From positions 1 through 61,362 of the forward strand of contig CABZEW010000007.1 of the NCBI GenBank assembly GCA_902524845.1: 61,362 nucleotides of DNA. Reading direction: 5' to 3'. Positions within the stretch are counted from its first letter, which is position 1. Each line of letters begins with the position of its first letter. A program made the translations under genes and the position numbers. Positions 23,328-25,526 of this stretch are shown one piece after another. Source of the stretch: an uncultured Alphaproteobacteria bacterium (GTDB lineage Bacteria > Pseudomonadota > Alphaproteobacteria > Rhodobacterales > Rhodobacteraceae). The notes beneath the pieces were generated by a model. The model was not told where the DNA came from. It saw only the letters and a list, made by a program, of their open reading frames with translations, and searched no databases.

Positions 23328-23690
<363 letters not shown>

Positions 23691-23721
23691 CTAAATTTAA
23701 TCTGTTAAAAACAAAAAAAAT

Positions 23722-23736
23722 GTTCTACTTTTGTTC
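23722..23736 (+). promoter_or_regulatory. LexA (SOS) box of the alphaproteobacterial type
   Basis: The sequence GTTCTACTTTTGTTC is a perfect GTTC-N7-GTTC direct repeat, the LexA-binding site of alphaproteobacteria. It lies 1 base before the ATG at 23738 of the DnaE2-like fragment and about 70 bases from the divergent ferredoxin start. The motif itself could occur by chance about once in a window of this size, but its location ahead of a piece of an SOS polymerase is unlikely to be chance. Confidence 0.7.
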
Positions 23737-23737
23737 T

Positions 23738-24073
23738 ATGAGTAAACTCTTGGATAAAGATGCTATTTTGACTTGCGCCGAATTATGTTCTCTAGAGAAT
23801 AACTCTTTTGCATCAGTTGCAGGATTTGTGATTGTTAAACAAATGCCCTCAACTGCAAAGGGGACTGTCTTTCTAACATTGGAAGATGAAACGGGAACTT
23901 CAAATATTATTTGTTGGAATAATATTTACAGAAAGTTTAGAAATCAAGTTGTGTTCTCTTCATTTTTACTAGTACACGGAAAGCTGCAGAGAGCAAATGA
24001 AGTTTCTCACCTCATCGCTACCAACGTGAGAGACATCTCAAGTCTTCTAAAACTTATTCCTAACATTAAATAG
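23738..24073 (+). CDS. Orphan C-terminal OB domain of error-prone polymerase DnaE2/ImuC
   Basis: A protein of 111 residues from the chosen ATG (an in-frame ATG at 23720 adds six). It matches only the last about 100 residues of DnaE2/ImuC: VAGFVIVKQMPSTAKGTVFL, then TLEDETGTSNIICWNNIYRKFR and VHGKLQRANEVSHLIA. In DnaE2 this OB fold follows the polymerase domains, none of which are present. There is no room upstream for them. The frame is intact and a LexA box precedes it. Either a kept stand-alone single-strand-DNA-binding domain, or the last remnant of a lost imuA-imuB-dnaE2 operon. It ends 7 bases before degQ (convergent). Confidence 0.8.
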   Translation: MSKLLDKDAILTCAELCSLENNSFASVAGFVIVKQMPSTAKGTVFLTLEDETGTSNIICWNNIYRKFRNQVVFSSFLLVHGKLQRANEVSHLIATNVRDISSLLKLIPNIK

Positions 24074-24080
24074 CATAAAG

Positions 24081-25526
24081 CTACTGGGTAGGCAGGCCAA
24101 TAAATCTCCTCATACCATTTCTAAGTATAAGCATTAGCACAGACGTTTTCTTTGCCCTTTTTGCTTCTTCATTGAGCTTTTTTAGCTCATCCGTTGAAGA
24201 AATTTTAACTCGGTTTACCTGAATAATAACATCTCCCTTTTTTAAACCTTTTTCCTCTGCGACGGATCCTGTCTTTACATCTACTATAACAACGCCCTTA
24301 ATATTCGCATCAATATCAAACTCTTCTGCTACTTCTCTGTTCACATTTGACAAAGTCATTCCCGCGAACTCCACTTTTTTTGAACTTTTCCTCACTGGTT
24401 GACTTGATGCGATATTGTCCTCCAACCGCCCTAGCTTGACATATAACGCCACCTCTTTTCCATCTCTCAATACCTTCACTAACACCTTCTTACCAACGGA
24501 ACTGTCACCAACTATCCTTACTAATTCTCTGGTATCTTTTATTTTCTTATCATCAAATTCAATAATAACATCCCCAGATTTTAAGCCTCCGTTTTTTGCA
24601 GGCCCCTCAGGCACATCTGTAACCAAAGCCCCATCAGTTTTTTCAATACCTAAAGCCTCTGCCACATCTTCAGTGACATCTTGTATTCTAACTCCTAACC
24701 AACCTCTTCTTGTCTCGCCAAAGGTTTTAAGTTGCTCAACTACTTTTTCAACAACTGCTGATGACATAGAGAAACCTATGCCTATGGATCCTCCATTGGG
24801 AGAAAGTATCGCTGTATTAACGCCGATTACTTCTCCTTCCATGTTAAAGAGTGGCCCCCCTGAATTTCCCCTGTTTATAGCAGCATCTGTTTGGATAAAA
24901 TCATCATAGGATCCGCTTAAAGCTCTTCCTCTTGCCGAAATAATACCAGCAGAAACTGAGAACCCTTGCCCTAAAGGATTACCGATCGCTAACACCCAGT
25001 CACCCACTTTGGCTTTATTGCTATCTCCAAAGCTTACAAAATTTAATTTATCTTGCGCCCTAACCTTTAAGAGAGCTATGTCTGTTTTAGGGTCGGTGCC
25101 AACTACACTTGCTTCCATTAAGCGACCGTCAAAGAATTCAATTTCTATCTGGTCTGCATTTTCTATTACGTGATTGTTAGTTACAACATAACCATTATCA
25201 GAAATGATAAACCCCGACCCAAGAGCAGTACCTCTTCTCTGCCTTCTGGGCGCGCCGTTTTTCTCTCTATCCATAAAATCTCTAAATAGATCTTCAAACG
25301 GCGATCCGGGGGGAAGCTGCGGGTTTAGTTCCTGCCTATTAGGTACTGTTGAGCTAGTAGTTATGTTGACCACTGACGGGCTAAGTTTCTCAACTAGGTC
25401 GCTAAAACTGTATGGAGCTTCTTTTCCAAAACCTGCGTTGCTGTAAATAAGAAATACCAAAGCTAATAACGATCCTAGAATATGAGGATAATAAATTTCT
25501 ATGAATTTCTTTTTCAAAAAGTTCAT
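24081..25526 (-). CDS. degQ: Periplasmic serine protease, DegP/DegQ (Do) family
   Basis: A 481-residue Do-type protease: N-terminal membrane anchor or signal (about residues 15-33), trypsin-like domain with His119 (VVTNNHVIEN), Asp149 (KTDIALLKV) and Ser222 (RGNSGGPLFN), then two PDZ domains (about 280-370 and 390-475). It degrades or refolds damaged envelope proteins. It follows hflK-hflC-DUF2065 in the same direction, 12 bases on, so envelope quality-control genes are grouped. Confidence 0.95.
   Translation of the reverse strand: MNFLKKKFIEIYYPHILGSLLALVFLIYSNAGFGKEAPYSFSDLVEKLSPSVVNITTSSTVPNRQELNPQLPPGSPFEDLFRDFMDREKNGAPRRQRRGTALGSGFIISDNGYVVTNNHVIENADQIEIEFFDGRLMEASVVGTDPKTDIALLKVRAQDKLNFVSFGDSNKAKVGDWVLAIGNPLGQGFSVSAGIISARGRALSGSYDDFIQTDAAINRGNSGGPLFNMEGEVIGVNTAILSPNGGSIGIGFSMSSAVVEKVVEQLKTFGETRRGWLGVRIQDVTEDVAEALGIEKTDGALVTDVPEGPAKNGGLKSGDVIIEFDDKKIKDTRELVRIVGDSSVGKKVLVKVLRDGKEVALYVKLGRLEDNIASSQPVRKSSKKVEFAGMTLSNVNREVAEEFDIDANIKGVVIVDVKTGSVAEEKGLKKGDVIIQVNRVKISSTDELKKLNEEAKRAKKTSVLMLILRNGMRRFIGLPTQ

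Follow-up and report, generated by a model that had tools for sequence, protein, structure and literature searches.

Here we describe a short gene in a 61,362-nucleotide stretch of Rhodobacteraceae DNA (contig CABZEW010000007.1 of assembly GCA_902524845.1, positions 1 to 61,362; hereafter the window). The gene lies on the forward strand at 23738..24073 and encodes 111 amino acids, comprising an OB domain that corresponds to the displaced C-terminal domain of the SOS polymerase DnaE2, also known as ImuC, an error-prone enzyme induced by DNA damage. The rest of DnaE2, which we call the body, is encoded elsewhere in the same genome. The two-gene form is old and occurs in many marine bacteria. Sequence comparisons give good support to the idea that dnaE2 has been split into two genes, and that this open reading frame is the missing half rather than debris. 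The OB gene keeps the same locus and the same LexA-type box across a clade, co-occurs with the body, and is under purifying selection. We propose that the two genes specify a two-subunit SOS polymerase, in which the OB protein acts in trans and is made from a LexA-box promoter, and that the split happened once, in an ancestor. We give this reading a probability of about three in four.

The OB gene and its LexA-type box

The product of the OB gene, read from 23738, matches the DnaE2 model NF004225 exclusively over positions 936–1037 of 1047 (E = 4.7e-29), which identifies it as the OB fold that closes DnaE2 at the C-terminus; the best other polymerase model, that of the replicative alpha subunit, reaches E = 4.1e-7. 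Five Pfam models match up to E = 1, the best being the OB fold PF01336 (E = 3.4e-10), and no single-stranded-DNA-binding protein (SSB) model is among them. A phmmer search of the PDB returned no match up to E = 1. AlphaFold2, supplied with an alignment of 40 proteins, predicts a complete OB fold, with a mean predicted local distance difference test score (pLDDT) of 91.7. Foldseek searches with this model gave generic results, recovering many kinds of OB fold; human CST was the top match (E = 3.9e-6), and the polymerase of M. tuberculosis (7pu7) appeared at rank 50 (TMq 0.73). The frame, open from 23720 to 24073 on the forward strand, is intact. A preliminary description of the window, made from the sequence alone, had likewise read it as an intact frame coding solely for the final OB fold of DnaE2.

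A box of the form GTTC-N7-GTTC (GTTCTACTTTTGTTC; 23722..23736, forward strand) is separated by a single base from the ATG at 23738; that description, too, had a GTTC-N7-GTTC box ending 1 base ahead of the ATG. This form appears as the alpha-proteobacterial LexA motif in PMC3323433. An in-frame ATG lies further upstream, at 23720..23722 on the same strand, and had been taken as the start of the gene. It overlaps the box, and in relatives from the same genus the box-overlapping ATG is out of frame; the ATG homologous to 23738 sits in these relatives two bases after the end of the box. These observations point to 23738 as the likely start of the gene, and 23720 is probably not the start.

The box is a constant feature of stand-alone OB genes. 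We collected 80 rows of OB matches and reduced them to 74 loci by removing L122, L123, L125 and L134, which proved to be the ends of fused genes, and the duplicates L034 and L096. The box is present at 70 of these 74 loci, between −200 and +60 of the chosen start; shuffled sequences gave a mean of 0.39 and a maximum of 3, and the reversed pattern is found at none of the 74 over the same stretch. In 61 of the 74, the box ends 1–3 bases before the chosen start, a figure that is favored by our choosing the start nearest to the box. With no choice of start involved, a box lies at most 450 bases before the tblastn match in 71 of the 80 rows, duplicates and fragments included. By count, the box is not significant: the window contains one, with 1.28 expected, and the genome as a whole is not enriched in the pattern, which occurs 35 times (48 for the reversed pattern). 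We considered and rejected the idea that the box arose by chance: insignificant by count, it is nonetheless highly conserved in position.

Outside the genus, where 56 loci carry the box, conserved columns T-A-T-N-T-T fall within it, and C-T-(T/G)-G is seen about 16–19 bases before the box. In the window, the putative −10-like element inside the box reads TACTTT (23726..23731, forward strand; column consensus TATNTT, box columns 4–9). A clear −35 element (CTTG) is evident solely outside the genus, the genus itself being without one. Together, these features suggest that the OB gene is probably served by a sigma-70-like, LexA-controlled, leaderless promoter, with the first transcribed base at or beside the start codon. 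The earlier suggestion of LexA control and an almost leaderless transcript thus gains from the conserved box and its internal −10-like element, as a prediction.

The DnaE2 body and its co-occurrence with the OB gene

The genome from which the window comes is represented by 1.95 Mb and is 74.4% complete. A search for mutasome genes, proposed in the preliminary description, turned up a dnaE2 body, imuB and a weak candidate for imuA. The body (951 amino acids; contig C1, 108528–111383) covers positions 4–943 of the NF004225 profile and then stops, where the OB domain would begin. It scores 1124 bits, above the cut-off of 939. Pfam recognizes in it the PHP, polymerase, finger and helix-hairpin-helix domains but does not detect an OB fold. 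The DnaE2 core of PHP, polymerase and helix-hairpin-helix domains thus resides in the C1 gene and not in the gene of the window. The body gene comes after imuB and a methyltransferase gene, and the start codon of imuB lies inside a GAAC-N7-GAAC box. The intervening gene (L003:9622-10503) encodes a predicted S-adenosylmethionine-dependent methyltransferase, and the same match occurs in all 16 body loci of the genus (L064–L079). The imuA candidate, on contig C5 (L309:1613-2245), matches NF033429 with E = 8.1e-4 and 19 bits, the cut-off being 150, and is located 18 bases behind another box of this type. If this candidate is counted, the mutasome genes of the organism would occupy three separate boxed loci.

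To survey the family, we used 149 genomes, one per genus; the listed rows were sorted by hand, and weak rows are not all among them. Bodies without an OB domain are found in 58 genomes, fused dnaE2 in 66, and pieces only in 8; in 18, no dnaE2 row was listed. One genome (G035) has both forms and is counted as split and as fused: its split body and OB gene share contig C1, and its fused dnaE2 is on C4, a contig of 126 kb that may be a plasmid. A stand-alone OB gene is present in 56 of the 58 split genomes versus 2 of the 18 without listed dnaE2 (Fisher's exact test, 2e-12, uncorrected for kinship). We read 42 of the 58 split bodies at the DNA level, and all stop after a conserved HPxxxxR stretch, with tails that are short or unlike one another. 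An order-wide profile search of 149 genomes, all of which belong to the family, recovered 52 stand-alone OBs in frames of 128–330 amino acids (E ≤ 6.3e-48) and fused frames of more than 1000 amino acids; it also gave one weak short row (G612), and four genomes had no match. Named records with a stand-alone OB gene include Ruegeria, Shimia, Marivita, Roseovarius, Tritonibacter, Pelagimonas, Roseivivax, Mameliella and Tropicimonas; on this basis, we take the family to be Rhodobacteraceae. Within the genus itself, 22 genomes, most of them incomplete, contain 17 bodies over the cut-off, none extending beyond position 943, and 15 OB rows. In two split genomes, imuB does not adjoin the body: the distance is about 3.2 kb in G043 (L327) and about 155 kb in G148 (L325, L326).

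Several candidates for additional splits were set aside. In the matches listed from 385 genomes of the class, short frames (<450 amino acids) outside the family lie near contig starts, except in G468. The latter was rejected as an independent split; its two pieces are side by side in different frames, indicative of a break in place. In G009, the OB row L125, which includes SRDFH, starts right at the beginning of a contig, and the body L146 is at the opposite end of that contig; this genome was counted as fused, and its other dnaE2 copies are fused too. G085, listed as covering positions 3–918, also proved to be fused (L142).

Outside the genus, split bodies show conserved LexA-like sites of their own, and LexA control is predicted for them as for the OB genes. 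Of 18 such bodies, 17 are preceded by a site with 7 or 8 of the 8 core bases (8 in seven cases, 7 in ten), located in 14 of the 17 about 30–40 bases before the matched start. The ten sites that are one base off are almost identical in sequence. In the genus, no such site was seen before any of 16 bodies, and the body there comes after imuB.

The rate of substitution, another check put forward earlier, indicates purifying selection on the OB gene. Within the genus, its median ratio of nonsynonymous to synonymous substitution rates (dN/dS) is 0.144, from the 90 usable pairs among 105; for the body, 120 pairs give a median of 0.111. A further feature of the OB proteins is the motif W-P-x-P-P (pattern W[PI][RKL]PP) near the N-terminus. 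Of the 59 stand-alone OBs from outside the genus, 52 have it, compared with none of 57 fused forms. It is possible that W-P-x-P-P is a docking motif gained after the split.

Origin of the split and its locus

A tree built from 76 bodies (925 columns) and rooted at its midpoint places all split forms to one side of a single branch, with a Shimodaira–Hasegawa-like approximate likelihood ratio test (SH-aLRT) value of 93. This holds with L145 (G125) counted as split; its label in the tree, 'full', came from length, and this long-tailed protein is a split body accompanied by a separate OB gene (L103). The OB tree, based on few columns, needs two changes when left free; constrained to one stand-alone clade, it has a better score and is not rejected (approximately unbiased test, p-AU 0.884). 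Together with the locus data below, these trees support a single origin of the split.

In the window, the OB gene is flanked by a divergent 2Fe-2S ferredoxin gene (23328..23651, reverse strand; PF00111) and a convergent gene for a DegQ/HtrA-type protease with Trypsin_2 and PDZ domains (24081..25526, reverse strand). The ferredoxin gene serves as the marker of the locus: it is near the OB gene in 72 of 74 loci by tblastn (about 110–135 bases away in cases checked), and degQ is in view at 50 of the 74. The short form was therefore found beside these genes in relatives, where the preliminary description had suggested looking for it, and no full dnaE2, which that description had said would speak against its view, was found at the same place. 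We also inspected 18 genomes with fused (14) or no listed (4) dnaE2. All 18 have the ferredoxin gene, 11 with degQ in view; in the 600 bases beside the ferredoxin gene, neither an OB relative (tblastn, E 1e-3) nor the box is present in any of the 18. This suggests that the OB gene came to the ferredoxin site once or, less simply, was lost there elsewhere.

The first branch of the split side, G083, is informative in this regard. Its OB protein ends in what looks like a worn version of the fused tail (THPRDQSKLLF, compared with HPRDQAKKLFPSRDFH), in keeping with an origin of the OB gene in the 3′ portion of a fused dnaE2. The same protein (L121), encoded behind a box, has 372 residues and carries a long low-complexity insert. 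Three split bodies, L294 (G133), L139 (G126) and L136 (G064), end in HPRxVRxF plus one residue. The tail of fused forms reads HPRxVR...SRDFH, and the ends of these three bodies resemble its start; perhaps the OB part was cut from within the gene.

Proposed mechanism, alternatives and related systems

The proposed course of events is as follows. Once, in an ancestor within the Rhodobacteraceae-like family, the OB-coding end of dnaE2 would have become a gene between ferredoxin and degQ, with its own LexA-box promoter, and dnaE2 would have lost the domain. Upon DNA damage, LexA would leave the box and, because the −10 element lies within the box, the ATG would mark, to within a base or so, the beginning of a small mRNA. 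Production of the OB protein would coincide with that of the body, the latter under its own LexA-like site or, in the genus, behind imuB. The two halves and ImuB would then assemble in trans into a two-subunit mutasome polymerase, with the OB subunit handling the single-stranded template. We infer LexA binding, leaderless transcription and the role on single-stranded DNA, and, from co-occurrence of the halves, assembly in trans. A more speculative extension, which we regard as doubtful, is that the OB protein is a dissociable, separately induced specificity subunit. The leaderless SOS promoter and the W-P-x-P-P motif would then set the dose of OB relative to the DnaE2 body, ImuB and even the replicative DnaE1, such that the mutagenic polymerase, instead of being an enzyme of fixed composition, could be switched on or handed over in trans.

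A number of observations weigh against a two-subunit polymerase of single origin. Two split genomes (G044, G064) have a body and imuB and no OB, even by profile search, and two genomes without listed dnaE2 (G051, G061) keep a boxed OB and imuB with no body found. Within the genus, where the genomes concerned are incomplete, no OB match accompanies the body in three (G155, G160, G162), and two (G157, G168) contain an OB gene but no body. The rate of the OB part relative to the body is higher in split than in fused forms (1.43 vs 1.16). OB and body distances correlate about equally well in split (r = 0.93, 21 pairs) and fused forms (0.92, 49 pairs), so species descent alone could yield the correlation. 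Most fused forms retain an SRDFH tail, which neither the bodies nor the stand-alone OBs of the split genomes read possess. SRDF[H/R] is reported at the C-terminus of about 77% of DnaE2 proteins in PMC3919608, where it is suggested to be an interaction motif and its function is given as unknown; its absence here is not decisive, as the motif is not universal in the family. The SH-aLRT value of 93 is under the mark of 95, and the body tree came with long-branch and composition warnings. Finally, the ten one-base-off body sites, taken individually, do not in most shuffles exceed chance (p = 0.045–0.14), and one body site (L152) is far upstream.

Some of these observations favor another possibility, namely that the OB protein is an independent SOS factor (binding single-stranded DNA or ImuB, or an add-on to DnaE1) and that the truncated DnaE2 works without it. 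The four family genomes with one half and not the other fit this idea, as does the W-P-x-P-P motif, in that something new appears to have been gained; DnaE2 proteins without an OB domain are also noted in PMC3919608. Nevertheless, the distribution in split genomes versus those without listed dnaE2 indicates that the OB gene rarely outlives the body, and we consider an independent factor possible and rather unlikely. The preliminary description had envisaged a stand-alone factor binding single-stranded DNA or ImuB. Its view that the piece is still used, and not debris, agrees with the open frames and the box conserved in relatives, and none of its three stated grounds for refutation (broken frames in close relatives, absence of the box there, a full dnaE2 at this position) was encountered; the notion of an orphan with a new role is not supported, given that the rest of DnaE2 is in the same genome and the halves co-occur across the family.

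Two further alternatives fare worse. That the frame is a leftover, still-open 3′ end of dnaE2 next to a chance box could appeal to a pattern expected about once per window and not enriched in the genome, but the persistence of the frame and its box at the same site in different genera, the low dN/dS and the complete OB fold in the model make this very improbable, and we take debris to be ruled out by conservation across relatives. Least probable of all is a trans-splicing split intein joining the halves, for which there is precedent in cyanobacterial DnaE genes (PMC3919608): reading the junctions of the own-genome halves by eye, with no intein model run, we saw no intein halves, the body ends a few residues past its last match, the OB protein begins about 20 residues before the fold, leaving no room for an intein, and in other genomes the tails are short, with little resemblance among them.

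The two-gene arrangement that we propose resembles known systems in part. Like fused DnaE2/ImuC, it involves the same polymerase family, the same OB domain by profile, LexA-type boxes and, in this genus, linkage of imuB to the body; unlike the fused form, it places the OB domain elsewhere in the genome, as a gene with a box of its own, and the SRDFH tail of most fused forms is absent from both halves. The intein-split DnaE of cyanobacteria, mentioned in PMC3919608, is likewise a C-family polymerase made from two genes. The cyanobacterial division falls within the polymerase, and an intein restores the chain, whereas the one described here falls between domains. As far as PMC3919608 is available, it describes OB-less DnaE2 with the same truncated body as here and makes no mention of an OB gene standing apart, of where such a gene would lie or of a LexA box in front of it. 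Stand-alone ImuB-C (PMC3765255) is another case in which the C-terminal domain of a mutasome protein also exists as an SOS-linked gene by itself; it is a different domain, with conserved neighborhoods containing polymerase genes, whereas the OB gene adjoins ferredoxin and degQ. In the titles and passages covered, we found no description of a separate DnaE2 OB gene.

If the reading of a split polymerase is correct, dnaE2 in 58 of the 149 sampled genera looks truncated only because its last domain sits at another locus, and the OB gene adds a one-gene LexA target to the regulons of these genera. To our knowledge, there is no agreed function for the OB domain of ImuC/DnaE2. In Ruegeria, Shimia, Marivita and Roseovarius, for example, the domain is naturally separate, at about 110–150 residues, and could be deleted, restored or titrated with the catalytic part untouched.

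Additional features of the genome and window were recorded. On contig C50, two GTTC-N7-GTTC boxes overlap in register (L311:1409-1434), just behind a recG-like helicase frame; no gene start was found within 120 bases of this double box. A protein of about 100 amino acids (L003:3582-3887, reverse strand) with no Pfam match up to E = 1 is encoded 11 bases behind another such box (L003:3902-3916). A single-sequence viral scan gave no link to phage, and a viral profile scan gave 14 candidate loci. Rfam identified two tRNAs in the window.
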